Assembly (NCBI RefSeq): GCF_023016805.1
Contig: NZ_JALKCH010000005.1
Span: 186,001-250,000, forward strand
Length of the DNA: 64,000 bases
Direction of reading: 5' to 3'
Origin: Ancylobacter crimeensis
Lineage (GTDB): Bacteria > Pseudomonadota > Alphaproteobacteria > Rhizobiales > Xanthobacteraceae
Under the pieces are notes generated by a model. The model was not told where the DNA came from, did not search any database, and saw only the letters and a program-made list of their open reading frames with translations. Positions 4,771 to 27,454 of this stretch are shown here, piece after piece; position 1 is the first letter of the stretch; every line of letters begins with the position of its first letter. A program made the position numbers and the translations under genes.

Positions 4771-6531
4771 TCACACCAGCATCTTGCCTTCCTCGTCGAT
4801 CGCCTCGTCCAGCGCTTCGGGATGATCGGGCAGGATCATCTCGTTGTGCGGCTTGCCCGAGGGGATCATCGGCAGGCAGTTCTCCTTCTGGTCGACCAGG
4901 CAGTCGAACAGCACGGGACGATCGACGCTGATCATTTCCTGGATCGCCGCGTCGAGGTCGCCGGGGCGGTGGCAGCGCATGCCGACCGCGCCATAGGCCT
5001 CGGCCAGCTTCACGAAATCGGGCAGCGATTCCGAATAGGAATGCGAGTAGCGCCCGCCATGGAGCAGGTCCTGCCACTGCCGGACCATGCCCATATATTC
5101 GTTGTTCAGCACGAAGATCTTGACCGGAAGGTTGAACTGCAGGGCGGTCGACAGCTCCTGCAGGCACATCTGGATCGAGGCTTCCCCGGCGATGTCGATG
5201 ACGAGGCTGCCCGGATGGGCCACCTGCACGCCGATCGCCGCCGGCAGGCCGTAGCCCATGGTGCCGAGGCCGCCGGAGGTCATCCAGCGGTTCGGCTCCT
5301 CGAAGTGGAAGTGCTGGGCCGCCCACATCTGGTGCTGGCCGACCTCGGTGGTGACGTAGACGTCCTTGTCCTTCACCGCGTTGTGGAGCCGCTCAATGGC
5401 GTATTGCGGCTTGATGACGTCCGGCGACTTCACATAGGACAGCGACTTGCGGGCGCGCCACGCGTCGATCTGGCCCCACCAGCCGGCGATGGCCTTGCGG
5501 TCCGGCTCGGCCTTCATCGCGCGCCACTGGGTCAGCATGTCGGAGAGCACGTGCTTGACGTCGCCGATGATCGGCAGGTCGATCTTGATGTTCTTGTTGA
5601 TCGAGGACGGGTCGATGTCGATGTGAATCTTCTTCGAGCCCGGCGAGAAGGCATCGACGCGGCCGGTGATGCGGTCGTCGAAGCGCGCGCCGACGCACAC
5701 CATGACGTCGCAATCATGCATCGCCATGTTGGCTTCGTAGGTGCCGTGCATGCCCAGCATGCCGAGCCACTGCTTGTCGGCCGCCGGATAGGCGCCGAGG
5801 CCCATCAGGGTCGAGGTGACCGGGAAGCCGGTCAGCCGGGCGAATTCGCGCAGCAGGCGGCTCGCTTCCGGGCCGGAATTGATGACGCCGCCGCCGGTGT
5901 AGAACACAGGGCGCTTGGCCTTGGCCAGCAGCTCGACCGCGGCGCGGACCTTCTCCGGGTCGCCGTTGAGGCGCGGCTGGTAGGTCTTGTGCGAGATGTT
6001 CTCGGGGCCGACATAGGTGCCCCTGGCGAACTGCACGTCCTTCGGGATGTCGACCACCACCGGCCCGGGACGGCCATTGGCGGCGACATAGAATGCCTCG
6101 TGCAGCACGCGGGCGAGGTCGTTGACGTCGCGGACGAGATAATTGTGCTTGGTGCAGGGCCGGGTGATGCCGACCGTGTCGCACTCCTGGAAGGCATCCG
6201 AGCCGATGAGATGGGTCGGAACCTGCCCGGTGATGCAGACCAGCGGAATCGAATCCAGCAGCGCGTCGGTCAGTCCGGTGACGGCATTGGTGGCGCCGGG
6301 CCCCGAGGTCACCAGCACGACGCCGACCTTGCCGGAGGAGCGGGCATAGCCTTCCGCCATGTGCACCGCGCCCTGCTCGTGGCGCACGAGCACGTGCTGC
6401 ACCTGGTTCTTGTGGAACATGGCGTCGTAGATCGGCAGCACCGCGCCGCCCGGATAGCCGAAAATATGCTCGACGCCCTGATCGATCAGGGCCTGGATCA
6501 CCATTTCGGCGCCGGTCATCTCGCGCATCAT
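4771..6531 (-). CDS. ilvB: Acetolactate synthase large (catalytic) subunit
   Basis: The thiamine-diphosphate enzyme that condenses pyruvate with pyruvate or 2-ketobutyrate, the first common step of branched-chain amino-acid synthesis. At 586 residues it is full length. The N-terminal PYR domain has the catalytic glutamate in VRHEQGAVHMAEGYAR near residue 47, the central FAD/TH3 domain spans about 200-330, and the C-terminal PP domain contains IDIAGEASIQMCLQEL and LNNEYMGMVRQW. The usual GD of the ThDP-Mg motif reads GE here; I recall the same variant from other alphaproteobacterial enzymes. A leader peptide and attenuator precede it (6581-6701). Confidence 0.96.
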   Translation of the reverse strand: MMREMTGAEMVIQALIDQGVEHIFGYPGGAVLPIYDAMFHKNQVQHVLVRHEQGAVHMAEGYARSSGKVGVVLVTSGPGATNAVTGLTDALLDSIPLVCITGQVPTHLIGSDAFQECDTVGITRPCTKHNYLVRDVNDLARVLHEAFYVAANGRPGPVVVDIPKDVQFARGTYVGPENISHKTYQPRLNGDPEKVRAAVELLAKAKRPVFYTGGGVINSGPEASRLLREFARLTGFPVTSTLMGLGAYPAADKQWLGMLGMHGTYEANMAMHDCDVMVCVGARFDDRITGRVDAFSPGSKKIHIDIDPSSINKNIKIDLPIIGDVKHVLSDMLTQWRAMKAEPDRKAIAGWWGQIDAWRARKSLSYVKSPDVIKPQYAIERLHNAVKDKDVYVTTEVGQHQMWAAQHFHFEEPNRWMTSGGLGTMGYGLPAAIGVQVAHPGSLVIDIAGEASIQMCLQELSTALQFNLPVKIFVLNNEYMGMVRQWQDLLHGGRYSHSYSESLPDFVKLAEAYGAVGMRCHRPGDLDAAIQEMISVDRPVLFDCLVDQKENCLPMIPSGKPHNEMILPDHPEALDEAIDEEGKMLV

Positions 6532-6580
6532 GGTCGTCTTCCTTTCGAACGCTGCTCGGTTCTGTCTGTCGTTGTCGCCC

Positions 6581-6608
6581 AGAAAATCAAAAGGCCCCGT
6601 CAGGGGCC
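6581..6608 (-). terminator. ilvB: Attenuator terminator upstream of ilvB
   Basis: On the minus strand a 6-bp GC stem ggcccc / ggggcc with a 4-base loop (6593-6608) is followed by TTTTGATTTT (6583-6592). This is an intrinsic terminator placed between the leader-peptide stop (6645) and the ilvB start (6531), the arrangement expected for translation-coupled attenuation. Confidence 0.8.
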
Positions 6609-6644
6609 CGTTTTAGCGCGTCACCATTCATGCGGCAGGAGCCC

Positions 6645-6701
6645 TCAGGCTGCCTCCGCGGCGACGCGCCGTCCTACGATAAGGATAATATTCTTGCGCA
6701 T
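6645..6701 (-). CDS. ilv leader peptide (branched-chain amino-acid attenuator)
   Basis: A tiny ORF translating to MRKNIILIVGRRVAAEAA, followed by TGA. The run Ile-Ile-Leu-Ile-Val at codons 5-9 is the regulatory-codon signature of ilv leader peptides. A good Shine-Dalgarno sequence (GAAGGAG) lies just upstream, a promoter-like pair lies at 6733-6761, and an intrinsic terminator lies downstream (6581-6608) before ilvB. In the known mechanism, shortage of charged tRNA-Ile, -Leu or -Val stalls the ribosome on these codons, an antiterminator forms and ilvB-ilvN is transcribed. Confidence 0.85.
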   Translation of the reverse strand: MRKNIILIVGRRVAAEAA

Positions 6702-6732
6702 TTCGGCGCCGCTCCTTCAAAAAGTTGCGCGA

Positions 6733-6761
6733 CCTCTACAGCCATGCCGCGCGCCCGTCAA
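6733..6761 (-). promoter_or_regulatory. Likely sigma70 promoter of the ilv leader
   Basis: On the minus strand TTGACG (6756-6761) and TAGAGG (6733-6738) are separated by exactly 17 bases, and transcription would start shortly before the leader-peptide ribosome-binding site. The -10 hexamer is imperfect, so this is a prediction from spacing and position. Confidence 0.5.
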
Positions 6762-6872
6762 GCGAGCTTGCCTCTAATGTCGCGCATCCCGACGGAATGA
6801 CAAGGCCGCGGGCACTTTCCGCCGCTCGCCGGGACCGCTATACCGGCTCAAAAGCGCGGGAGTGTTGGCAAG

Positions 6873-7688
6873 ATGTCGCAGATGCGGCTCGTCGTCGTAG
6901 GCGCCAGCGGGCGCATGGGCCGTACACTTGTGCGTGCCATTGCCGAGGCGCCGGACCTTGTTCTGGCCGGCGCGGTGGAGCCCGAGGGTAGCCCCCATCT
7001 GGGCACCGATGCCGGCGTGCTGGCCGGCTTGCCACCGCTCGACGTCACGGTGAGCGATGACGCCTTGCCGCTTTTCGCCGCTGCCGAGGGCGTAATCGAC
7101 TTCACCATTCCCAAGGCCAGCATCGCCTTTGCTGGCCTCGCCGCGCAGGCGCGCATCGTGCACGTGATCGGCACCACCGGGTTCGACGCGGCCGAGCAGG
7201 CGGCCGTCGAGGCCGCCGCGCGGCACGCCACCATCGTGAAGTCGGGCAATATGAGCCTCGGCGTCAATCTGGTCGCCGCGCTGGTGAAGCGGGTGGCAGC
7301 GACGCTCGACGACAGCTTCGACATCGAGGTGCTGGAGATGCACCACAACCGCAAGATCGACGCCCCCTCCGGTACCGCACTGCTGCTGGGCGAAGCGGCG
7401 GCAGCGGGACGGCAGGTCGCGCTGTCGAGCCATGGCGTGTTCGAGCGACACGGCATCACCGGCGCCCGCACGCCGGGCGAGATCGGCTTCGCGACGCTGC
7501 GCGGCGGCACCGTGGTGGGCGAGCACGAGGTGATCTTCGCCGGCCCGCATGAGCGCATCTCGATCGGCCATCGTGCCGAGGACCGCATGATCTTCGCCCG
7601 CGGCGCGCTGGCCGCGGCACGCTGGGCGCGGGGCCGCAAGCCCGGCCTCTATTCCATGAACGACGTGCTCGGCCTCGCCGACATCTGA
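6873..7688 (+). CDS. dapB: 4-hydroxy-tetrahydrodipicolinate reductase
   Basis: Reduces the cyclised aspartate-semialdehyde/pyruvate product to tetrahydrodipicolinate with NAD(P)H, in lysine and diaminopimelate (peptidoglycan) synthesis. The 271 residues include the N-terminal nucleotide-binding motif [12 protein letters not shown] near residue 8, the turn DFTIPKAS near residue 76, and the signature [15 protein letters not shown] near residue 153, which holds the catalytic histidine pair and lysine. A second in-frame ATG three codons downstream is an alternative start. gpmA follows after about 40 bases on the same strand. Confidence 0.96.
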
Positions 7689-7727
7689 TCTGCCGCCTGT
7701 CCCGCACCCTTCTGGAGAATGAGCTCC

Positions 7728-8351
7728 ATGTCCGATCGCCTTCTCGTCCTCGTCCGCCACGGCCAGAGCGAGTGGAACCTGAAGAACCTGTTCACCGGCT
7801 GGCGCGACCCGGACCTGACGCCGCGCGGCGTCGACGAGGCGCGCAAGGCCGGCAAGCGGCTGAAGGCCGAGGGGCTCAGCTTCGATGTCTGCTTCACCTC
7901 GGACCTCAAACGCGCCCAGGACACGCTCGATCTCATCCTCGAGGAAATGGGCGAGGACAATCTGCCCGTCATCTGCGACCAGGCGCTGAACGAGCGCGAC
8001 TATGGCGACCTCTCCGGCCTGAACAAGGATGATGCCCGTGCCAAATGGGGCGAGGAGCAGGTGCATATCTGGCGCCGCTCCTATGATGTGCCCCCGCCCG
8101 GCGGCGAGAGCCTGAAGGACACGGTCGCCCGCGCGCTGCCCTATTACGTGAAGGAGATCCTGCCCCGCGTGCTGCGCGGCGAGCGGGTTCTGGTGGCCGC
8201 GCACGGCAATTCGCTGCGGGCGCTGATCATGGTTCTGGAGAAGCTGACGCCGGACGGCATCATGAAGCGCGAGCTGAACACCGGCGCGCCGGTCATCTAC
8301 CGTCTCAATGCCGATTCAACGGTCGAGAGCGTTCTCGACCTCGCGGACTGA
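7728..8351 (+). CDS. gpmA: 2,3-bisphosphoglycerate-dependent phosphoglycerate mutase
   Basis: Interconverts 3- and 2-phosphoglycerate in glycolysis and gluconeogenesis through a phosphohistidine. The 207-residue protein opens with the histidine phosphatase motif [12 protein letters not shown] and continues [15 protein letters not shown]. The second catalytic histidine lies in [12 protein letters not shown] near residue 156. An ATG nine bases upstream (7719) is in frame, but it is only one base from the GGAG ribosome-binding site; 7728 has the better spacing. It lies between dapB and a small multidrug-resistance gene, all on the plus strand. Confidence 0.95.
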
Positions 8352-8360
8352 GACCGGCCC

Positions 8361-8702
8361 GTGGCGTCGCTGGCGACCTATCTGCTGCTGCTCGGCGCCA
8401 TCGTCGCCGAGGTCGTGGCGACCAGCGCGCTCTCGCGTTCCGACGGCTTCACGAAAGCGGGGCCAAGCGCGGTTGCGGTGGTGGGCTATGCCCTCGCGCT
8501 GTGGCTGCTCTCGATCTGCCTGCGTACCATCCCGACCGGCATTGCCTATGCGATATGGTCGGGCGTGGGCATCGTGCTGATCGCCCTGGTGGCTTGGCTC
8601 TGGCAAGGCCAGAAACTCGATGGCCCTGCCATTGCCGGATTGGGTCTCATCATCACCGGCGTGCTGGTGGTGCAAATCTTCTCGAAATCGGTCACGCACT
8701 GA
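8361..8702 (+). CDS. SMR family (EmrE/SugE-type) small membrane transporter
   Basis: A 113-residue protein with four hydrophobic helices. The first carries the membrane-embedded glutamate of the small multidrug-resistance family in LLLGAIVAEVVATSAL near residue 9, and helix 2-3 has the family segment IPTGIAYAIWSGVG near residue 58. SMR proteins work as antiparallel dimers exchanging protons for cationic drugs, polyamines or guanidinium; the substrate here is unknown. The start is GTG, ten bases after gpmA, with no strong ribosome-binding site, so translation may be coupled to gpmA. Confidence 0.9.
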   Translation: MASLATYLLLLGAIVAEVVATSALSRSDGFTKAGPSAVAVVGYALALWLLSICLRTIPTGIAYAIWSGVGIVLIALVAWLWQGQKLDGPAIAGLGLIITGVLVVQIFSKSVTH

Positions 8703-8723
8703 ACCAGGGCCTTGGGGCCTCGT

Positions 8724-9605
8724 TCACCCCCCGGCCACCTGCCCGGCTTCCCAGCCGAGAATCGCCCGCTTGCGCGTAAGGCCCCAGTGATAGCCGGTGA
8801 GGTCGCCGTTCTGGCCGAGCACGCGGTGGCAGGGCACCACGAAGGAGATCGGGTTGCGCCCGACCGCCGCCCCGACCGCGCGTGCCGCCTTCGGACGTTC
8901 GACGCAGGTCGCTATGCTGGAATAGGTGGTCGCCTTGCCGAGCGGTATGCGCATCAGCGTCTCCCACACCCGCACCTCGAAATCCGTGCCGATGAAGACG
9001 ACACGCAGCGGATCGTCCGGCCGCCAGGCATCGCGGTCGAAGATGCGCGCGGCATAGGGCGCAGTTGCCGCCGGCTCCTCGCGATAGGTTGCGTTCGGCC
9101 AGCGCCTGCGCATGTCGGCCAGAGCTGCCTCCTCCTCGCCTTCGTCAGCAAAGGCGAGGCCGCACAGCCCGCGCGGCGTGACCATGGCGAGGGCGCTGCC
9201 GAAGGGCGAGGCATGAAAGCCCCAACGGATCACCAGCCCGGCACCGCCCGTCTTCCATTCCCCCGGCGACATGGATTCGTGCACCACGAACAGATCGTGC
9301 AGGCGACCGGGCCCGGACAGGCCCACCTCATAGGCGGCATCAAGCACATTGCCGGATTCCGCCAGCACCCGCCGCGCCGCATCCAGCGTGACCGCCTGCA
9401 GGAAGTCCTTCGGCGTCAGTCCGCACCAGCGGCGGAACAGGTCGGTTAGGGCGCGCGGGGTGACGCCGGCGGCGCGGGCGATCGCCTCGACATCGGGCTG
9501 GTCGCGGAAGGACCGGTTCACAAAGCCGACGGCACGGCGTACCACCTCATAATCGACGGCGGGGCCTTCCAGCGGCGGCAGCAAGTTGATGTCGGGTGCG
9601 AGCAT
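8724..9605 (-). CDS. Ada-like methylated-DNA-protein cysteine methyltransferase with AraC domain
   Basis: DNA repair suicide enzyme that transfers O6-alkyl groups from guanine to its own cysteine. In 293 residues it combines an AraC-type helix-turn-helix (about 20-115) with an Ogt/MGMT catalytic domain (about 130-285) containing the acceptor motif VVPCHRVLG and the preceding helix AVGAAVGRNPISF. The zinc-binding N-terminal Ada domain for phosphotriesters is absent, so it matches the shorter bifunctional activator/methyltransferase class rather than full Ada. The start at 9605 has a strong ribosome-binding site (CAGGAGG). It converges on the SMR gene. Confidence 0.92.
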   Translation of the reverse strand: MLAPDINLLPPLEGPAVDYEVVRRAVGFVNRSFRDQPDVEAIARAAGVTPRALTDLFRRWCGLTPKDFLQAVTLDAARRVLAESGNVLDAAYEVGLSGPGRLHDLFVVHESMSPGEWKTGGAGLVIRWGFHASPFGSALAMVTPRGLCGLAFADEGEEEAALADMRRRWPNATYREEPAATAPYAARIFDRDAWRPDDPLRVVFIGTDFEVRVWETLMRIPLGKATTYSSIATCVERPKAARAVGAAVGRNPISFVVPCHRVLGQNGDLTGYHWGLTRKRAILGWEAGQVAGG

Positions 9606-9688: not shown

Positions 9689-10240
9689 TCACGTCAGGCT
9701 GCGGTCTATGCCGCGCTTGGCGACGGCGAGGGCCGTCGACAGGCCGGCGGCGATCTCCTTGCGCTCGCTGGCGTGCAGGAAGCCGCCGATCTCGGTGGGG
9801 GTGCCGCGCGAGATGAGGGTGAGCTTCTGCATGCCGAACTCCTCGTGCACCTCGGTTTGGAGCCGGGTCCAGAGCGGGTTCATCTCGGTGTCCACCGCGA
9901 AACCGTTGGGCGATACCTTGCGGACGGTGAGCCGGCTCGGCGTCACCGTGATCTCCTCGCGGGCACGCGCGGCATGGAAGTTCATACGCAGCGCGATCCA
10001 CATCAGAAGCACGTCGAGCCCGAACAGCCCCATCACCGGCCAGGCGCCCATCAGCATGAAGGCGAGGCCGCAGGCGAAGCTGACCCCCGCGATGACCAGC
10101 ATCACGATGAGAAAACCCCGCTCGTCCAGCGAACGATAGGGGATCAGCGTCGCTTCATAGAGGGTGGGTTCGAGGCCCGTCGCGTCGGCATCCTCGGGCA
10201 CGAGATCGGCCGGATCCTCGGCAGATATGGAAGGCTGCAT
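9689..10240 (-). CDS. DUF2244 domain membrane protein
   Basis: A 183-residue protein with two closely spaced transmembrane helices (about residues 45-85) and a conserved cytoplasmic-like domain containing ITVTPSRLTVRKVSPNG and WTRLQTEVHEEFGM, which I recognise as DUF2244. Function unknown; in Rhizobiales it typically neighbours nth, as here. I prefer the ATG at 10240; a GTG start 63 bases further upstream is also in frame. It is divergent from nth with fewer than 80 bases between them, so the two promoters must overlap or lie back to back. Confidence 0.78.
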   Translation of the reverse strand: MQPSISAEDPADLVPEDADATGLEPTLYEATLIPYRSLDERGFLIVMLVIAGVSFACGLAFMLMGAWPVMGLFGLDVLLMWIALRMNFHAARAREEITVTPSRLTVRKVSPNGFAVDTEMNPLWTRLQTEVHEEFGMQKLTLISRGTPTEIGGFLHASERKEIAAGLSTALAVAKRGIDRSLT

Positions 10241-10315
10241 CCTTGAAACTCTGTCGCGACGCCACGAAGGACGGAGACGCTTGGTGTTTGCCCAACCCGC
10301 CACTATAGGTCACGC

Positions 10316-11191
10316 ATGGCGAAGAAGATCAAGGATTCCAGTGCATCGACGCCGGCTGTGGCGGCGTCCCGCCGCAGGGTCGGCAAGGGGGCGGTAACCG
10401 CTTCCGTGCCGCGCACGCCTGAAAGGCTGGAGGAGGTCGCGCAGGTGGTTGTGGCGAACGGGGATGACGCCGTACCGGATGCGCCGCGCCGGCGGCGTCG
10501 CGCGGTCGCCAATGCGGCTGCGGCCGCGGTGGGCGCCCGGTTCCGGCGCTGGACCAAGGCGGAGGTCGTCGAGGCCTTCTCGCGCTTCGAGGCGGCTGAT
10601 CCCGAGCCGCGTGGCGAGCTCGATCACAGCGACCCCTTCACCCTGCTGGTTGCGGTCGTGCTTTCCGCACAGGCGACCGATGCCGGGGTGAACAAGGCGA
10701 CGCGAGGGCTCTTCGCCGCGGCCCCGACGCCGGCGGCCATGGTCGCGCTGGGCGAGGAAGGTGTCGCCCGCCACATCCGCACGCTCGGCCTTTATCGCGG
10801 CAAGGCAAAGAACGTGGTCGAACTGTCGCGCCTGCTCATCGCTGAGCATGGCGGCCAGGTTCCGCGAGACCGCGAGGCGCTGGAAGCGCTGCCCGGCGTG
10901 GGGCGCAAGACTGCCAATGTCGTTCTGAACATCGCCTTCGGCGAACCGACGATCGCGGTCGACACCCACCTGTTTCGTGTTGCGAACCGCACGGGTCTTG
11001 CGCCGGGCACGACCCCGCTTGCAGTCGAGCTGGGGTTGGAAAAGGCGATTCCCGACCGCTTCAAGCTGCACGCCCATCATTGGCTGATCCTGCACGGGCG
11101 TTATGTCTGCAAGGCACGCCTGCCGGAATGCCCCCGCTGCCTCATTGCCGATTTGTGCCGCTGGCCGGAAAAGACCCCGGCGCCGGCGTGA
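10316..11191 (+). CDS. nth: Endonuclease III
   Basis: A base-excision repair DNA glycosylase/AP-lyase for oxidised pyrimidines. The catalytic core shows LVAVVLSAQATDAGVNKA, the helix-hairpin-helix LPGVGRKTANVVLN, the catalytic aspartate in VDTHLFRVANR, and the iron-sulfur ligands as C-x6-C-x2-C-x5-C in the C-terminal 30 residues. The total is 291 residues; about 70 N-terminal residues before the core are basic and low in complexity, longer than E. coli Nth (211), and may reflect an overlong start. The last 50 bases overlap the convergent EI24-like gene. Confidence 0.94.
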   Translation: MAKKIKDSSASTPAVAASRRRVGKGAVTASVPRTPERLEEVAQVVVANGDDAVPDAPRRRRRAVANAAAAAVGARFRRWTKAEVVEAFSRFEAADPEPRGELDHSDPFTLLVAVVLSAQATDAGVNKATRGLFAAAPTPAAMVALGEEGVARHIRTLGLYRGKAKNVVELSRLLIAEHGGQVPRDREALEALPGVGRKTANVVLNIAFGEPTIAVDTHLFRVANRTGLAPGTTPLAVELGLEKAIPDRFKLHAHHWLILHGRYVCKARLPECPRCLIADLCRWPEKTPAPA

Positions 11192-11858: not shown

Positions 11859-12088
11859 GGCGGGATCCGGTTGGGGCGCACCTTACCTAGGTGCATGCTC
11901 TTCCGTGCTCAAGGACGAAGGGCGGGAGCGGGCGAAACATATGATGCGACTCGGCTTTTTCGTTTTTTGCTTGCATCGGCCGCGGTTCGCCGGGAATCCC
12001 GATTCGTTCCCGGCGAACGGAACATGAATCGCGAACGCCGCACCCGACGGCTTCTTCCGCCGCGTCTCGCCATGCTAGCCTTGCCGCG

Positions 12089-21519: not shown

Positions 21520-21604
21520 GCCCAGGTGGCGGAATTGGTAGACGCGCTGGTTTCAGGTACCAGTGGGTAACACCGTGGAGGTTCGAGTCCTCTCCTGGGC
21601 ACCA
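21520..21604 (+). tRNA. tRNA-Leu (anticodon CAG)
   Basis: An 85-nt type II tRNA with encoded CCA. The acceptor stem is gcccagg / cctgggc, the anticodon arm ctggt-ttcaggt-accag gives CAG (reads CUG), the variable arm is long, and the T arm contains ggttcgagtcc. Its 3' end from 21588 is the left attachment site of an integrated element: the 18-base segment tcctctcctgggcaccat recurs at 27437. Confidence 0.97.
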
Positions 21605-21605
21605 T
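21588..21605 (+). repeat. attL: 18-bp direct repeat at the tRNA-Leu 3' end
   Basis: tcctctcctgggcaccat covers the 3' part of the tRNA T arm, acceptor strand, CCA and two further bases. The identical 18 bases occur at 27437-27454. The copy next to the integrase restores a complete tRNA, as is usual for tRNA-targeted integrases. Confidence 0.88.
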
Positions 21606-21667
21606 CACTCCCCTAATGCCTTGATTTTGCTGAGGGCCTTGTTAATACAAGGGTTTTGACGTGCCGA

Positions 21668-21690
21668 CCGGTACACACGGGCGGTACACA
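21668..21690 (+). repeat. Candidate integrase arm-type sites near attL
   Basis: ccggtacaca (21668-21677) and gcggtacaca (21681-21690) are direct repeats spaced 13 bases apart just inside attL and before the integrase ORF. A third copy, ccggtacaca, lies at 27363-27372 just inside attR. The placement fits arm-type binding sites of a lambda-like integrase; this is inference from position and identity. Confidence 0.45.
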
Positions 21691-23309
21691 TGGTCCTCAG
21701 GATGGCACGGCCGATGCGCCGGGAAGATAGCTCCTACATCCAGTTTCGGCAGCGGGTTCCCGCCGATCTTGTCGGCAAGGTAGCCGGTCATGGGGTCGTT
21801 ATTCTGTTTCCCGCAGAAGGCGGCGATCCACCCTCCGCTGTGAATGCGACTATCGGCAAGGCAGAAGTCAAGTTCTCCCTCCGCACCCGTGACCCGCGTG
21901 TAGCGGCGATCCGCAAGGGGCTCGCGGAGGTGCGCCTGCAACGGCTTTATGACAGCCTGCGGCAGCCTCCCCGTCACCTTTCCACGCGGGAAGTGGTGGC
22001 ACTGGCCGGGGAGCTTTACCGCGAAGACATGGCGCTGTGGGAGGACAATCCGGCCTCGGCTGCGGTCTGGCGGAAGTTTCGGGATGCGATGGCGTCATCC
22101 CGGCTCGACGATGAGGGTGCCCTCGAACGTGAGATGGCTCCCTTCATAGACCGGCTGCTCGCCATGCGGGGCTTGGTGATCGACGACGACAGCCGCTCCC
22201 GCCTTGCCCCTGCTGTGCGGAAGGCGATTGCCGATGCAGCGGTGACGCTGGAACGGCGTGCCAGCCTCGACTATGGGCCGGACCTTCTGGTGCATCAGTA
22301 TCCTGCGTGGCAGGGGCCTGAGGCTGTGGGCGGCACGGACAACAAGCATAGGGAAGGGCCGTCCCCCCAGTTGTCCGGCAAAGCGGTATCCATGCGCGGC
22401 TTGGTCGATGGCTGGTGGCAGGAAGCGAAGGCGGCGGGAAGGTCGATCAAGACCCATCAGGCTTATTCATCGGCCATGGATCGGTTGGTCGAGCATGTCG
22501 GGCACGACGATGCCTCCCGGATCACCTCGGATCACGTTCTGGCCCTGAAAGACAGTCGCCTTGCTTCCGGTATCAGCCCCAAGACGGTGAAAGACAGCGA
22601 TCTGGCTGGCCTCAAGGCCGTATTCGGATGGGCCGTGGCCAACAGGCGGTTGGCGTCGAACCCGGCTGACGGGATCAAGGTCCAGCGTGCCCGGCCGATC
22701 AAGCTGCGGGACCGGGGGTTCACCGATGCGGAGGCAGAGGCGGTGCTCTCTGCGGCCTCCTGTCACCGGCAGGGCAAGGAGAGGCCCAAGACCTTCGCCG
22801 CGAAACGGTGGGTGCCGTGGCTGTGCGCCTATACCGGTGCGCGGGTCGGGGAGGTAGCGCAACTGCGCAAACAGGACGTTCGGCAGCAAGGTGATAGCTG
22901 GATTATCACGCTCACGCCCGAGGCCGGGCCGATCAAGAACAAAGAGGCACGGGAGGTACCGCTGCATCCCCATCTGGTGGAGATGGGCTTTCCTGATTTC
23001 GTCAGAGGTTCGGCGGAAGGCTACCTGTTCCTCTCTCCCAGCCGCGACGGGCACATCAACGGCCCTCTACAGGGCCTCAAGAACCGCTTGGCAGAGTTCG
23101 GCCGGTCCATCGTTGCCGACCCGAACGTTGCCCCCAACCATGCGTGGCGGCACCGGTTCAAGACCGTGGGCATGGAGGCCGGTATATCGGAGCGGGTCTT
23201 GGATGCCATCTGCGGCCATGCTCCGAAGACGGTTGGACAGACCTACGGCATGGTGACGATCCCGACCAAGGTGGACGCGATAAGGCGGCTGCCGAGGTAT
23301 GGCGCTTGA
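21690..23309 (+). CDS. Tyrosine site-specific recombinase (integrase)
   Basis: A 539-residue phage-type integrase, long for the family. The N-terminal region begins like DUF6538-type integrases (SSYIQFRQRVPADLVGKVAG), a core-binding SAM-like domain spans about 230-330, and the catalytic domain covers about 340-530. Active-site residues are visible: arginine in AYTGARVGEVAQLR, the H-x-x-R pair in NHAWRHRFKT, and ICGHAPKTVGQTYG, which holds the second histidine and the terminal nucleophilic tyrosine. It lies 85 bases inside attL and would catalyse integration into tRNA-Leu. The domain looks intact, so the element may still be mobile if an excisionase is supplied. Confidence 0.93.
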   Translation: MVLRMARPMRREDSSYIQFRQRVPADLVGKVAGHGVVILFPAEGGDPPSAVNATIGKAEVKFSLRTRDPRVAAIRKGLAEVRLQRLYDSLRQPPRHLSTREVVALAGELYREDMALWEDNPASAAVWRKFRDAMASSRLDDEGALEREMAPFIDRLLAMRGLVIDDDSRSRLAPAVRKAIADAAVTLERRASLDYGPDLLVHQYPAWQGPEAVGGTDNKHREGPSPQLSGKAVSMRGLVDGWWQEAKAAGRSIKTHQAYSSAMDRLVEHVGHDDASRITSDHVLALKDSRLASGISPKTVKDSDLAGLKAVFGWAVANRRLASNPADGIKVQRARPIKLRDRGFTDAEAEAVLSAASCHRQGKERPKTFAAKRWVPWLCAYTGARVGEVAQLRKQDVRQQGDSWIITLTPEAGPIKNKEAREVPLHPHLVEMGFPDFVRGSAEGYLFLSPSRDGHINGPLQGLKNRLAEFGRSIVADPNVAPNHAWRHRFKTVGMEAGISERVLDAICGHAPKTVGQTYGMVTIPTKVDAIRRLPRYGA

Positions 23310-23703
23310 GCCGGTCGGGTTCCTCTGCCGCGCTCAACTCCCGCCCTGTAATGGCTCAGTGGGATTGGATGTCGGGGGCGGCATGTTCTCGTTACGCGGG
23401 CGGTCTGGCCAAAAAGACAACTTGAAGCATTCAGTCGCAATCCTGCGACAATCTGTCCAAATACTTCACTAAAATCATGGCTTCATTCACACGAAGTTAT
23501 GTATTTTGTTATATAATGATTAAGTCATTGATTATTTTGCATAGAAAGGTCGGATATTTCGCAGTCGAAAACTTCATTTCGATTAATAATTGATTTGAAT
23601 CGGGCCATTCGGACAATCGAAGTCTGATTTTCAACGTTGATGTTCCAGCTATTTGCATCATCCTGTTTGCGAGCACTGACGCTCAATCGCAGGAGGCATT
23701 ACG
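23310..23703. other. AT-rich intergenic region inside the element
   Basis: 394 bases without a convincing gene. The first 120 bases have normal composition; 23430-23640 is strongly AT-rich and contains a perfect TATAAT at 23512-23517 with a TTCACA 20 bases before it. It probably holds the promoter for the plus-strand genes that follow. No excisionase-like ORF was found here. Confidence 0.6.
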
Positions 23704-24078
23704 ATGCAGGCCATCAACGCTTTCCCGTTTCCGTTCTCGCCCACGCCCTATGGATGCCGGTTGGAAGACATCCCCGACGACATCGTGACCGGGGACGGCT
23801 GGAAGCCCCTCGACGCCGTGAACCTCGATCACCTGCCGCCGCCCGGCTGGTACACGGTGGGGCACTGGTCGGCACTGACGGAGCCCGGCATCTTCCGCTT
23901 GCTCTCCGGGCCCCTTCACGAAGCCCTCGCAGACATGGAAGCGCAGGCGGTAGCGGCCAGCCGCAGAGAGGGCATCGAACCCATTGACTGGCCAGCCCCT
24001 CCCGCCTTGGTGGCCATCGGGATCGAGACGGTGAAGCTAATACCGGAGATTGTCCTGCGGGACATCACACGCGGCTGA
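23704..24078 (+). CDS. Hypothetical protein of the integrated element (124 aa)
   Basis: I do not recognise this protein. It is 124 residues, acidic, without signal peptide or membrane helix, and rich in prolines and aromatic residues. It begins MQAINAFPFPFSPTPYG, and the middle reads LPPPGWYTVGHWSALTEPG. A good ribosome-binding site (GGAGG) lies 10 bases before the ATG, which together with normal codon use supports it as a real gene. It is the first gene after the AT-rich promoter region. Confidence 0.7.
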   Translation: MQAINAFPFPFSPTPYGCRLEDIPDDIVTGDGWKPLDAVNLDHLPPPGWYTVGHWSALTEPGIFRLLSGPLHEALADMEAQAVAASRREGIEPIDWPAPPALVAIGIETVKLIPEIVLRDITRG

Positions 24079-24269
24079 TGCATCGGTGGGGCGGGCGGGG
24101 TCTTCCTGTCCCGCCTCTCCGGTTTCTTCGCCAGACGGACACGGCGCATAGACGGCAATCTTTTCGAGCGTTCGTTGACATCGGCAGGCCACCCCCTGCC
24201 CCTCGACCTCGCCGCCCACCTCATCGCCCTCGGCTACGACCTTCCCGCCCTCGAACGCCGTTACGCATC
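24079..24269 (+). other. Spacer with possible micro-ORF coupled to the BRO-N gene
   Basis: In the frame ending TGA at 24271-24273 the DNA stays open from 24079 and the last codons read DLAAHLIALGYDLPALERRY, which looks like an amphipathic protein end. The only usual start codon is a TTG at 24175, giving 32 residues. Its stop overlaps the ATG of the next gene (ATGA), suggesting translational coupling. It may also be the tail of a gene truncated by deletion. Confidence 0.35.
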
Positions 24270-24521
24270 ATGAGCAACCTCACAACCTACACCTTCGGCA
24301 CCCACACGATCCGCGTCGTGACGATTGACCGGGAGCCTTGGTTCGTCGCGGCGGATGTCTGCCACGCTCTGGACGCCTACCTCGGACCCCGTTCGGGGAG
24401 GCCAAATGTTACTGCGGCCAAGGGACATGCCGGGGAGCCCCTGAACGAAGCTGCCGATGCCATGGCGAAAGCCGAGGCGCACAGGCAGCAGGCGATGGGC
24501 AGCATCGTCGGGGCTCCGTGA
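24270..24521 (+). CDS. Chimeric ORF: BRO-N fragment joined to an RNase HI C-terminus
   Basis: An 83-residue ORF. Residues 1-33 match the start of the BRO-N (phage antirepressor) domain, with HTIRVVTIDREPWFVAADVC. Residues 48-70 match the C-terminal end of RNase HI: AAKGHAGEPLNEAADAMAKA corresponds to the family KGHAGHPxNExxDxLAR segment, including the conserved asparagine-glutamate and the aspartate. Neither domain is complete: BRO-N lacks its second half and RNase H lacks its beta-sheet core and other catalytic acids. The likely explanation is an in-frame deletion between two phage genes. The start overlaps an upstream stop (ATGA). Confidence 0.6.
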   Translation: MSNLTTYTFGTHTIRVVTIDREPWFVAADVCHALDAYLGPRSGRPNVTAAKGHAGEPLNEAADAMAKAEAHRQQAMGSIVGAP

Positions 24522-24575
24522 CGCGGCGCTACCTCCAATCCCGGACAAACGATCATCTTCGATACTCCGTCTTCC

Positions 24576-24947
24576 ATGTCGTCCCCCGCCGCTTCCGGCA
24601 CCGAGGGCGACACGGCTTCATTTACGCCTACGGCCTCCGTCGCCCCCTCTGCCATCGCCCTCTCTTTGACGCCGGCTGGCAATGGCCGGTATGCCGCCTT
24701 CCTGCCTGATGGCGAGCACCTTCTCACCAGCCGCCAGCCGCTCTATGCCGGTGCCCGTGTCCTCATGGCCCGTGGTGTCGATCCGGCCACGCCCCTCACC
24801 ATCCGCCATGACGGAGCCTCTAACGTCGCCATGCGTTCGGCCGTGGGGAAGGCGGCTCGCCTCTACGTGAGGGAACGAGACACAGGGGGCATCCTGACCG
24901 TTCCATATCGCCCTCACCCCCTCTCGGCTTCTGGAAGGGCTCCCTGA
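24576..24947 (+). CDS. Hypothetical protein of the integrated element (123 aa)
   Basis: Not assigned to a function. The first 30 residues are Ser/Thr/Ala-rich and low in complexity. The remaining 90 look like a compact domain with GRYAAFLPDGEHLLTSRQPL and ARVLMARGVDPATPLTIRHDG; I have a weak recollection of similar small conserved proteins in Rhizobiales genomes, without known role. Its TGA overlaps the ATG of the following 41-aa ORF (TGATG), so they are translationally coupled, and the virion gene follows directly. Together they form a tight three-gene run. Confidence 0.6.
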   Translation: MSSPAASGTEGDTASFTPTASVAPSAIALSLTPAGNGRYAAFLPDGEHLLTSRQPLYAGARVLMARGVDPATPLTIRHDGASNVAMRSAVGKAARLYVRERDTGGILTVPYRPHPLSASGRAP

Positions 24948-25060
24948 TGTACCCGGTATCGACCAAGGACGCCCATTCGGGGGTGTCGGGCTATATCGGG
25001 TGCCCGGAATGCAAATGCCCGTCTGTGGTGAGAGCCGTGTGGCCCGATGCCCCATGCTGC
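24929..25060 (+). repeat. Imperfect direct repeat, copy 1 (with 25722-25845)
   Basis: A segment of about 120 bases starting with cttctggaagggctc, containing gtatcgaccaaggacgccca and gtgtcgggctat, recurs with divergence on the other side of the gp14-like gene. Each copy carries the ribosome-binding site and coding region of a small STKDAH ORF. Confidence 0.7.
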
Positions 25061-25072
25061 TTGAAGACCTGA
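24947..25072 (+). CDS. Small ORF A with STKDAH motif and clustered cysteines (41 aa)
   Basis: Starts at the ATG overlapping the previous stop and ends 2 bases before the next gene. The peptide begins MYPVSTKDAHSGVSGYIG and then contains CPECKCPS and a CC pair, five cysteines in total, suggesting metal binding. The ribosome-binding segment ctggaagggct lies before it. A paralogous ORF lies at 25742 with the same upstream segment. Function unknown; the two copies and the packed gene order argue that it is translated. Confidence 0.5.
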   Translation: MYPVSTKDAHSGVSGYIGCPECKCPSVVRAVWPDAPCCLKT

Positions 25073-25074
25073 GC

Positions 25075-25704
25075 ATGTGTGTCGGACCCGCAGCCATCGC
25101 CATCGCGGCTGCAAGCTCCCTCGTCTCCTATGTCGGGGCTGCACAGCAGGCGAAAGCCCAGAACCAGTATTACGCCCAGAACGCCGCTGCCGCCCAGGAG
25201 GCCGCTGTCAACCAGTATGCGGCCCTCGGACACAAGCAGGAGCAGGAACGCAAGGCAGCCAGCCTCGACCTGCAACAGAGTAACCTGGAAGCCCTCAAGG
25301 CCCGCTCAACGACCGCTACGGGCGCTGGGGAGGCCGGGGTGTCTGGCTTGTCCGTCGATGCCCTGATCGGGGACATCTTCGCCCAGCAGGGTCGCAAGAC
25401 CGAGGCTATTACCAGCAACTACGCCATGACCTCCGACAGTATCCGAGCCCAGATGGACGAGGTACAGGCGCAGGCAACCTCCCGGATCAACTCCGTGCAG
25501 AGGGCGGCAAGCCCTAATCCCCTCGCCTACATCGTGCAGGGGGCCAGCAATGGGCTCGCCATCGCATCGGGCAAGTCTGTTCCCGGTACGGTGACGGCCA
25601 CGCCCAGCACCACCAAGACGAACGGCCTGTTCGGGGCGGCCGACGAACAGACCTACACCAGCTTCTACACCGCTGGCGGCAAGGCCAAGTCCTATGGCTG
25701 GTGA
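25075..25704 (+). CDS. T7 gp14-like internal virion protein
   Basis: A 209-residue protein resembling podovirus internal core protein gp14, which is ejected into the host envelope with the phage DNA. It starts MCVGPAAIAIAAASSLVSYVG (hydrophobic, as in T7 MCWAAAIPIA), then an alanine/glutamine-rich helical region AAQQAKAQNQYYAQNAAAAQ with heptad character, and a central RKTEAITSNYAMTSDSIRAQMDEV. T7 gp14 is 196 residues with the same layout. This is the clearest structural phage gene in the element; its usual partners (gp15, gp16, portal, head, tail) are absent. The weak ribosome-binding site suggests coupling to the upstream small ORF. Confidence 0.7.
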   Translation: MCVGPAAIAIAAASSLVSYVGAAQQAKAQNQYYAQNAAAAQEAAVNQYAALGHKQEQERKAASLDLQQSNLEALKARSTTATGAGEAGVSGLSVDALIGDIFAQQGRKTEAITSNYAMTSDSIRAQMDEVQAQATSRINSVQRAASPNPLAYIVQGASNGLAIASGKSVPGTVTATPSTTKTNGLFGAADEQTYTSFYTAGGKAKSYGW

Positions 25705-25721
25705 GGGATGCAGCCTGCCTG

Positions 25722-25845
25722 ACTTCTGGAAGGGCTCTCTGATGTCGGACGTATCGACCAAGGACGCCCATTTGAGGCTGTCGGGCTATGTCGGTACTGC
25801 GAACCCCAAACGCCCGCCTGTGAACGCTATGGTGTGTAGTGATGC
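25722..25845 (+). repeat. Imperfect direct repeat, copy 2 (with 24929-25060)
   Basis: Second copy of the repeat, starting cttctggaagggctc with gtatcgaccaaggacgccca. Similarity is highest over the first 75 bases and then falls off. The two copies flank the gp14-like gene in the same orientation, so recombination between them would delete that gene. Confidence 0.7.
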
Positions 25846-25858
25846 CGTATCGGCCTGA
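25742..25858 (+). CDS. Small ORF B, paralogue of ORF A (38 aa)
   Basis: Begins MSDVSTKDAHLRLSGYVG, matching ORF A at STKDAH and SGYxG, but the cysteine cluster is replaced by TANPKRPPVN, leaving one cysteine. It overlaps the start of the following HNH-like gene by 17 bases in another frame. A ribosome-binding segment (ggaaggg) identical to that of ORF A precedes it. Function unknown. Confidence 0.42.
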   Translation: MSDVSTKDAHLRLSGYVGTANPKRPPVNAMVCSDAVSA

Positions 25859-26531
25859 CGCTTTCCACGGCGATGACGACAATGAGGGGGCAGCTTTGGC
25901 GGCTGCCTTCCTCGACCCCTCCCCGGAGGAACGCCAGCGCCGTGCCGAACAGTGCCGGAATTTGGCGGAAATTTCTGAGGGCATGATTGATAGAAGACGG
26001 GCGCGGAACTTCCCCCTCGGCCCCTTCGACGCCATTAGGCAGGGCCATGACTGCCCGCCGCGCAAGGATGACGGTCCGTTCGATCCCGTCCGTGCATCCC
26101 AGCCGGTGACGTTGCAGGTTCCACGCAAGGTCGGGAGGCGCATCCTCTCCGTCCATCCGGTGACGATGGAAGCCGCCGACTGGCACCACCTCAGGGCCAT
26201 GGGCTATGGGCGGCTCCACATCAACGCCCATGGCGTGGCGTCGGGCACGGGCAGTCGCAGTGTCCCGAGGCTCATCGCCTGTGCCGGGCACCATGAGACG
26301 GTGGCGTATCGCGATGGCGACCCGTGCAACCTGTGTCGTGGCAACCTCGTCGTCATCACACGGCATCTGCACCACCGGGCAACGGGGCATTATCCGGCCT
26401 GCCCCAGCGACGGGGAGATGACGGTGCATCTGGCGAATGGGGCTGTCCGCAACAAGCCCAAGGCAATGGGCCTCACGCCACAGGACCGGCTGCGGGACAT
26501 TCTGTCGTCGGGCACCACGTCGGCTACCTGA
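25842..26531 (+). CDS. HNH-like protein with altered active site
   Basis: A 229-residue protein. The C-terminal third resembles the beta-beta-alpha core of HNH_3/AP2-type homing endonucleases: INAHGVASG, then PRLIACAGHHETVAYRDGD, then CRGNLVVIT, matching the family order of HxxxG, vDHxNGDxxDNRxxNLRvvT. The first catalytic histidine position reads Tyr and the DNR motif reads NLC, so ordinary nuclease chemistry looks lost. A CxxC (CNLC) and the HLHH cluster could instead bind zinc. The N-terminal half is charged and without assignment. A GTG one codon upstream is an alternative start. Confidence 0.55.
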   Translation: MPYRPDAFHGDDDNEGAALAAAFLDPSPEERQRRAEQCRNLAEISEGMIDRRRARNFPLGPFDAIRQGHDCPPRKDDGPFDPVRASQPVTLQVPRKVGRRILSVHPVTMEAADWHHLRAMGYGRLHINAHGVASGTGSRSVPRLIACAGHHETVAYRDGDPCNLCRGNLVVITRHLHHRATGHYPACPSDGEMTVHLANGAVRNKPKAMGLTPQDRLRDILSSGTTSAT

Positions 26532-26659
26532 CTGTCCCTTGGAGTATACCCCTGCGGTCGTCGTGTCCGCCCGCTGAAACCACGACCGTTAGGGTTGACT
26601 TCGGGTCAGGGGACATCTTATCTGCGGTCATGATCCATTCGGACGCATCGGAGCCGATC

Positions 26660-27298
26660 ATGTCCACCATCCTCTATGCCCGCGTCTCCACCGCAGACCA
26701 GATCCTCGCCCATCAGCGGACACAGGCCGAGAAGGCCGGCTATGTCTTCGACACGGTGATTGCCGATGAAGGCGTCTCCGGGCTCTCCACGGCCTTGAGA
26801 GACCGTCCTCAGGGGCGCCGGCTGTTCGATGTCCTTCGCTCCGGGGATGTCCTCGTGGTCCGCTGGGTGGACCGGCTGGGGCGCAACTATGCCGATGTCA
26901 CGGAGACGATCAGGGCGTTCATGCGCCGGGGCGTGGTGGTGAAGACCATCATCAACGCCATGACCTTCGACGGGGCCACCACGGACCCCGTGCAGATGGC
27001 CGTGAGAGACGCCCTCATCGCCTTCATGGCGGCGACCGCGCAGGCGCAGGCAGAGGCCACCAAGGAAGCGCAGAAGGCCGGCATCGCCCACGCCAAGGCG
27101 ACCGAAGGGGCCTCCAAATACAAGGGCCGCAAGCCCAGCTTCACGCGGGACCAGTTCGCCACCGTGCGGGACCTGCTGGGGCAAGGGACGGGCATCAGCG
27201 AGATTGCCAAGTTGACGGGGCTCACCCGGCAGACGGTCTACAGGATCAAGGACGATCCAGCGGGGCAGGCAAAGGCGCTGGAGGCGTGGGGCGGGTAG
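26660..27298 (+). CDS. Serine site-specific recombinase (resolvase/invertase type)
   Basis: A 212-residue small serine recombinase. The catalytic serine lies in ILYARVSTADQ (residue 10), followed by DEGVSGLSTALRDRPQGRRL and VLVVRWVDRLGRN, the conserved DRLGR arginine segment. A long E helix lies at about 100-145, and a Hin/resolvase-type helix-turn-helix ends the protein (GISEIAKLTGLTRQTVYRIK). The start at 26660 has a CGGAG ribosome-binding site; an ATG 30 bases upstream is an alternative. As the last gene before attR it gives the element a second recombinase family; possible roles are DNA inversion, dimer resolution or a separate acquisition. Confidence 0.93.
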   Translation: MSTILYARVSTADQILAHQRTQAEKAGYVFDTVIADEGVSGLSTALRDRPQGRRLFDVLRSGDVLVVRWVDRLGRNYADVTETIRAFMRRGVVVKTIINAMTFDGATTDPVQMAVRDALIAFMAATAQAQAEATKEAQKAGIAHAKATEGASKYKGRKPSFTRDQFATVRDLLGQGTGISEIAKLTGLTRQTVYRIKDDPAGQAKALEAWGG

Positions 27299-27362
27299 GT
27301 TGTTCCGATGGCAGGCCGGGGGCATCTATGAGTTTTGTCCGTGTTGTCAGTCCGCCACAAAA

Positions 27363-27372
27363 CCGGTACACA
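27363..27372 (+). repeat. Candidate integrase arm-type site near attR
   Basis: ccggtacaca, identical to the copy at 21668-21677 next to attL, lies 65 bases inside attR. Conservation at both ends of the element and nowhere else that I noticed supports a recombination role. Confidence 0.42.
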
Positions 27373-27436
27373 AAGCTCATTCGTCGGCTCGTCGAAATCC
27401 AGCATCTTCAAGGATTTTTGGCGATTTTACCGCCAA

Positions 27437-27454
27437 TCCTCTCCTGGGCACCAT
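27437..27454 (+). repeat. attR: 18-bp direct repeat of the tRNA-Leu 3' end
   Basis: tcctctcctgggcaccat is identical to 21588-21605. It is followed by a T-rich trailer (cagttttttg), the expected original sequence downstream of the tRNA gene before insertion. Confidence 0.88.

Follow-up and report, generated by a model that had tools for sequence, protein, structure and literature searches.

A chimeric open reading frame in a tRNA-Leu-integrated element of Ancylobacter crimeensis, very probably a deletion scar joining the start of an antirepressor gene to the end of an RNase HI gene

Introduction

The T7-like phages of the RHEph01 / vTRX32-1 group (Paadamvirus, Autographiviridae) are described in PMC8631192 as having an attachment motif within tRNA-Leu, and RHEph01 itself as having acquired a Bro-domain putative antirepressor. 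Their gp14 is related to that of the element studied here, but they are complete phages with a complete Ant, and 28 kb of RHEph01 gave no RNase H match. Mesorhizobium phage vB_MloP_Lo5R7ANS (Pairvirus, Autographiviridae) carries, in the same order as our element, homologues of a 124-aa frame, a 32-codon frame and gp14, but has no match to ant or RNase H. A prophage-like locus in a genome of the same genus (L055 in G008) holds, on one strand, homologues to both our 124-aa frame and our RNase H tail; unlike in our element, its RNase H is complete (165 aa; phrog_531, E 6.5e-43), no BRO-N match is present and the neighbouring integrase matches that of Lo5R7ANS. An element from another genus of the same family (L121 in G504) also occupies tRNA-Leu(CAG), has an att core that differs from ours by one base, and presents the order integrase-ant-RNase H-resolvase on the same strand. 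It differs in that Ant and RNase H are separate and complete, its integrase is only 34% identical to ours, and it lacks a gp14 match.

Here we analyze an 83-codon frame in a 64,000-nucleotide stretch of Ancylobacter crimeensis DNA, hereafter the window. The initial annotation of this frame had proposed an in-frame joining of a BRO-N start to an RNase HI end, either as the scar of a deletion or as a small new protein with its own role.

Results

The frame resides in an element of 5,867 bp (21588-27454) delimited by exact 18-bp att repeats, of which the left one coincides over 17 of its 18 bases with the 3' end of tRNA-Leu(CAG) (Table 1). The 124-aa frame is a distant relative of its Lo5R7ANS counterpart (E 0.07 against all phages, 7.6e-6 in a small set of loci), and the gp14-like protein matches nine phage records, the best being Mesorhizobium phage Lo5R7ANS with 54% identity over 39% of the query. 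Scans of viral contigs with gp14 or the 124-aa frame as query returned no relatives, and promoter and terminator scans produced nothing useful. By tblastn against the loci compared, the 32-codon frame matches Lo5R7ANS within the annotated gene Lo5R7ANS_22 (E 4.4e-5) as well as a prophage in G352 (E 6.6e-6); in Rhizobiales T7-like phages its relatives lie within a small gene positioned just before the gp2.5/ssDNA-binding gene (Lo5R7ANS_22; Pasto_019, E 0.010). A 100-bp direct repeat brackets gp14, has no full-length match outside the window itself in the loci compared, and may mark the route by which a gp14 cassette entered. A further tRNA-Leu(CAG) of the genus (G027; L084, L085) is followed by an integrase in two pieces, with 64% and 78% identity to that of the window, which sit at two contig ends where the contigs stop inside the gene; some of the frames behind this integrase look, by eye, like transposase genes.

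Table 1. Coordinates of features in the window and in the related element L121 of G504
Feature	Position	Strand	Remarks
tRNA-Leu (CAG), integration target	21520..21604	+	
Left att repeat, 18 bp	21588..21605	+	exact match to 27437-27454
Tyrosine integrase with DUF6538, 539 aa	21690..23309	+	family match, relatives elsewhere
124-aa frame	23704..24078	+	55% to a homologue at the locus in G008; gene 10 of phage Lo5R7ANS a weak homologue
32-codon small frame, TTG start by eye	24175..24273	+	TGA overlaps chimera ATG; tblastn similarity to small phage gene
Chimera of 83 codons, ant start joined to RNase HI end	24270..24521	+	frame intact, no internal stop
BRO-N antirepressor start, codons 1-35	24270..24374	+	phrog_130; 63% identity over 35 residues to 251-aa G042 open frame
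Joint interval, codons 36-50	24375..24419	+	two-profile cut-point scan
RNase HI C-terminus, codons 51-83	24420..24518	+	phrog_531; E. coli RNase HI alignment
123-aa frame	24576..24947	+	no family found (Pfam, PHROGs)
Direct repeat copy 1, 100 bp, around gp14 start	24928..25027	+	79% identical to 25723-25822
T7 gp14-like internal virion protein	25000..25704	+	PF24072 E 2.2e-34; phrog_805 E 3.8e-31
Direct repeat copy 2, 100 bp, after gp14	25723..25822	+	
230-aa frame	25839..26531	+	no family found; best PHROG match E 0.4
Serine resolvase, beside right att	26636..27298	+	PF00239 E 2.5e-25
Right att repeat, 18 bp	27437..27454	+	
L121 tRNA-Leu(CAG)	5077-5161		
L121 integrase	5213-6988		34% identical to window's
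L121 Ant, 183 aa, intact	7566-8117		Bro-N E 3e-23 over all 96 positions
L121 RNase H, 159 aa, intact	8264-8743		RNase_H E 2.5e-38
L121 ParB-like frame	8740-9474		Pfam ParB_N 0.0044 only
L121 resolvase	10150-10827		Resolvase E 1.1e-30
L121 att repeats, 18 bp	5145-5162 and 11977-11994		as window's except last base

As had been noted from the sequence, the 83-codon frame is open throughout and its ATG overlaps the TGA of the small upstream frame as ATGA; this overlap is real and ties the remnant to a small frame common to phages. The proposed two-part composition also held when profiles were searched, each half finding its own family. The PHROGs anti-repressor Ant family (phrog_130) was matched at E 7.5e-10 by the whole product and at 1.9e-10 by residues 1-34, and the PHROGs RNase H family (phrog_531) at 3.4e-4 by the whole product and at 2.6e-4 by the C-terminal part alone, while in Pfam both matches fell below the gathering cut-offs (Bro-N, E 3.1e-4, 21.7 bits against 25.6, positions 2-24 of 96; RNase_H, E 0.068, 13.8 bits against 25.8, positions 115-140 of 141). 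RNase H is thus significant by PHROGs and not by Pfam, and neither collection holds a single family spanning all 83 residues.

Profiles of our own gave the same division, with scores far above those of shuffled sequences. A BRO-N profile was built from 15 of 20 rows and, in a cleaned version with the same outcome, from 14 of 20 after a doubtful row (L015 2217-2930) was dropped; residues 1-36 reached 55.1 bits on the cleaned version, and 2000 shuffles at best 6.7. The RNase H profile retained 34 of 39 rows, leaving out five: two that were long, one in the wrong frame, one truncated and one distant. On it, residues 37-83 scored 23.7 bits (best of 2000 shuffles, 7.0), and on a profile of the seven mobile RNase H rows 23.1 bits (best of 2000 shuffles, 8.2), compared with 18.5 bits on the non-mobile profile. 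When prefix and suffix scores were summed for every cut, they formed a plateau from codon 35 to codon 50 and dropped on either side, which places the joint within 24375-24419; the profiles assign residues 36-50 to neither parent. An inverted repeat, CCCCG-TT-CGGGG, is present at 24387-24398 inside this interval. The BRO-N end carries LD (as ALD) and many chromosomal RNase H proteins contain LDA, and a short CTGGAC microhomology may conceivably have been shared at the joint.

Both identities assigned initially stand, with their limits extended: BRO-N similarity continues to about residue 35 rather than 33, and RNase HI similarity reaches residue 82 in the closest match rather than stopping at 70. 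The BRO-N start includes the PWFVAADVC segment and is 67% identical over 24 residues to the G504 Ant. Residues 51-82 match the RNase H end of the G008 locus with 52% identity over 33 columns, and the motif NE.[VA]D.[LM]A[KR]AEA, present in the window tail, occurs in all seven mobile RNase H proteins and in none of 29 others, a grouping that we set from their scores with three of the 39 rows left out. What survives is small on either side, 23 of the 96 Pfam positions of BRO-N and 26 of the 141 RNase H profile positions, so that neither a complete BRO-N domain nor the full RNase H fold is present. In the alignment with E. coli RNase HI, H53 of the chimera corresponds to position 124 and D63 to position 134. 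The catalytic carboxylates of that enzyme are D10, E48, D70 and D134, with H124 also in its active site; the region of the other three carboxylates is absent from the chimera.

Some further assignments were considered and set aside. A longer frame, 24078-24521 (147 aa), opens with 64 proline/arginine-rich residues lying over a region with phage similarity in another frame, and in alignment the initial M of the nearest BRO-N relative falls on the ATG at 24270. The GRPN at residues 43-46 was tried as a second BRO-N piece, but in the Ant of G001 and G002 GRPN follows a 23-residue gap, and with the cut scan flat here it is inseparable from chance. A chromosomal RNase H is the less likely donor of the tail: the AEA ending is missing from the host's own copy (L002), and the score is lower on the non-mobile profile.

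Candidate parents were found in relatives. The G504 RNase H, reached with the G008 RNase H as query and 65% identical to it, is encoded just downstream of a BRO-N gene in L121, with the two genes separated by 146 bp in the order and on the strand shared with the chimera. Full-length ant and RNase H neighbours in a related tRNA-Leu(CAG) element are what a deletion scar predicts, and the check put forward in the initial annotation therefore supports that reading. BRO-N and RNase H were both present in four distinct loci examined (G504, G072, G042 and G147), in all four with BRO-N upstream on the same strand, 0.15 kb away in G504 and about 2.5 kb away in G147; as searches for these very genes gathered the loci, they give no estimate of frequency. 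The two domains are, as first stated, unrelated, but with their genes adjoining in relatives the fusion is nothing remarkable. In G042 (L122 6239-6570), the BRO-N located upstream of RNase H is split over two frames, and the ant there seems broken too. A locus of similar composition in G474 (L053 2613-12986) brings together tRNA-Leu(GAG), a window-type integrase, a shortened RNase H frame and T7-like gp16, gp15 and gp14.

The missing parts of the two genes were not found in the element. With the G504 Ant, RNase H and ParB, the G042 Ant and the G008 RNase H as queries (tblastn, E <= 0.1), only the two known pieces were recovered; one extra match, at E 0.2, includes a stop codon and seems fortuitous. 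Neither a direct ancestor nor a sister strain with an undeleted element at tRNA-Leu(CAG) appeared among the genomes searched.

A search for homologues covering the junction, as suggested initially, was carried through genomes, phages, plasmids and viral contigs and found no homologue of the fusion. Matches were present in 448 phage and 193 plasmid records, none of which covered 80% of the 83-aa product. Among 151 genomes searched as relatives, 14 matched at E <= 0.001, and among 391 family genomes 11 matched at E <= 1e-4; the own genome is counted in both, no other was shown to hold both parts so arranged, and as the sets contain one genome per species, partly sampled, copies in other strains are still possible. 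The genome contig collection contributed one matching locus and the viral contig collection two, each with one half, and a 24-base pattern across the joint had no exact match in the viral contigs. The fusion is single-copy in its own genome, where the next best match is RNase H at E 0.028. Several single-parent frames do align across the joint: RNase H frames from residues 18-27 to 69 (G008, G077, G119 and the own genome) or over 18-79 (G512), E. coli RNase HI over 18 to 71, and BRO-N frames over 10-50 (G017), 6-56 (G601) and, at 29-30% identity, 11-80 (G001, G002). Although these count against a deletion origin, we read them as extensions of matches to one parent, none having been shown to be a fusion. 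A narrow literature search on BRO-N antirepressor / RNase H fusions in prophage remnants found no such fusion in the portions of text it covered.

Discussion

The 83-codon frame is, in all likelihood, a deletion scar that joined the start of an ant gene to the end of an RNase H gene. The ancestor would have been a phage-derived element integrated at tRNA-Leu, with a BRO-N-type ant and, downstream of it on the same strand, an RNase HI gene. The deletion would have run from about 35 codons into ant to a point 33 to 48 codons short of the RNase H gene's end, the remnants being joined in frame by chance, and the chimera would thereby have retained the start codon of ant, with its ATGA overlap, and the stop codon of RNase H. 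Since the missing parts were not found in the element, we favor a deletion, presumably a single event, over a frameshift or a rearrangement that kept the parts. In an ungapped register with G504, Ant codon 28 (chimera 35) is joined to RNase H codons 113-128 (chimera 36 to 51), which corresponds to 950-995 bp lost; a loss equivalent to 0.95-1.0 kb of the G504 arrangement would thus yield the chimera. This size of about 1 kb is borrowed from a distant relative, the G504 integrase being only 34% identical to that of the window. Both surviving halves are well conserved, which points to a scar of recent origin or to one held under some constraint.

The extent of the deletion bears on a possible though doubtful variant of this reading, in which the element would descend by reduction from a temperate T7-like prophage, with the joint marking the loss of roughly 18 kb between its early/middle genes and gp14. 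The order of the 124-aa frame, the 32-codon frame, the chimera and gp14 is colinear with Lo5R7ANS, where the homologues lie at 5.2, 14.0 and 32.5 kb, and in the prophage-like loci L055 and L053 RNase H stands by late genes, complete and just before a gp15-like gene in the former, short of its GHAG end and adjoining gp16 in the latter, a placement that would allow so long a loss. Yet no T7-like locus examined has both genes, with ant only in RHEph01 (28 kb) and RNase H only in L053 and L055 (20-kb stretches), and with the two genes adjacent, as in G504, a far smaller loss suffices for the fusion. Whether short or of about 18 kb, the deletion leaves a scar either way. The weak Pfam score of the RNase H half (E 0.068) counts against any such origin and, together with the lack of a phage tblastn match to the C-terminal half alone, would allow that half to be a chance resemblance beside a merely truncated ant. 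We consider this exceedingly improbable given the PHROGs match at 2.6e-4, the score of 23 bits where 2000 shuffles gave no more than 8.2, the tail motif in seven of seven mobile RNase H proteins and the position of RNase H downstream of BRO-N in four relatives.

That a small fusion protein was retained, for example as a truncated BRO-N peptide binding other BRO-N proteins or a repressor, accords with the intact frame, the ATGA start overlap and the lack of visible decay in either half, but nothing beyond the open frame supports the independent role first suggested, and the single genomic copy, the absence of a fusion homologue in the collections searched and the few domain positions left make it very unlikely. 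A single-sequence AlphaFold model points the same way, with a mean pLDDT of 52.6, a pTM of 0.30 and values below 50 at residues 40-58, although a model made without an alignment is weak evidence. More specifically, the fusion could be translated via the ATGA overlap and kept as a small regulator, its BRO-N fragment acting on full-length BRO-N proteins or on repressors that incoming related elements bring, with the RNase H helix serving only as a stable tail, which strikes us as highly improbable. Bro-N proteins of PICI satellites have been called a domain-swapping network (PMC10111431), which would suit a complete BRO-N joined to a new C-terminal domain; with BRO-N cut at position 24 of 96 and an RNase H fragment that is not a whole domain, such a swap borders on the inconceivable here. 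Judged from its sequence, what remains, about a quarter of BRO-N and under a fifth of RNase H, is unlikely to make an active protein, and the product of the deletion scar would be expected to have neither enzymatic nor antirepressor activity.

A recurrent gene set was observed in several loci (L121 5077-11994, L123, L122, L057, L125, L124, L127 and L128). Its members combine an integrase of the window type and a serine resolvase with BRO-N, a distinct clade of RNase HI or both, and in some cases with a ParB-like frame, though not all of these genes occur in every one. An integrase lies beside tRNA-Leu (L121, L057), tRNA-Thr (L125), tRNA-Glu (L124) or tRNA-Phe (L128), and no capsid protein was found among the five L121 proteins scanned. 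The set may be an undescribed satellite-like family, and the association of integrase, BRO-N, RNase H and resolvase in tRNA-integrated elements may merit its own study. In annotation, the 83-codon frame should carry the label of a deletion remnant; to call it an antirepressor, an RNase H or a new small gene would mislead. It offers a clear worked case of the decay of a mobile element producing an open chimeric frame.
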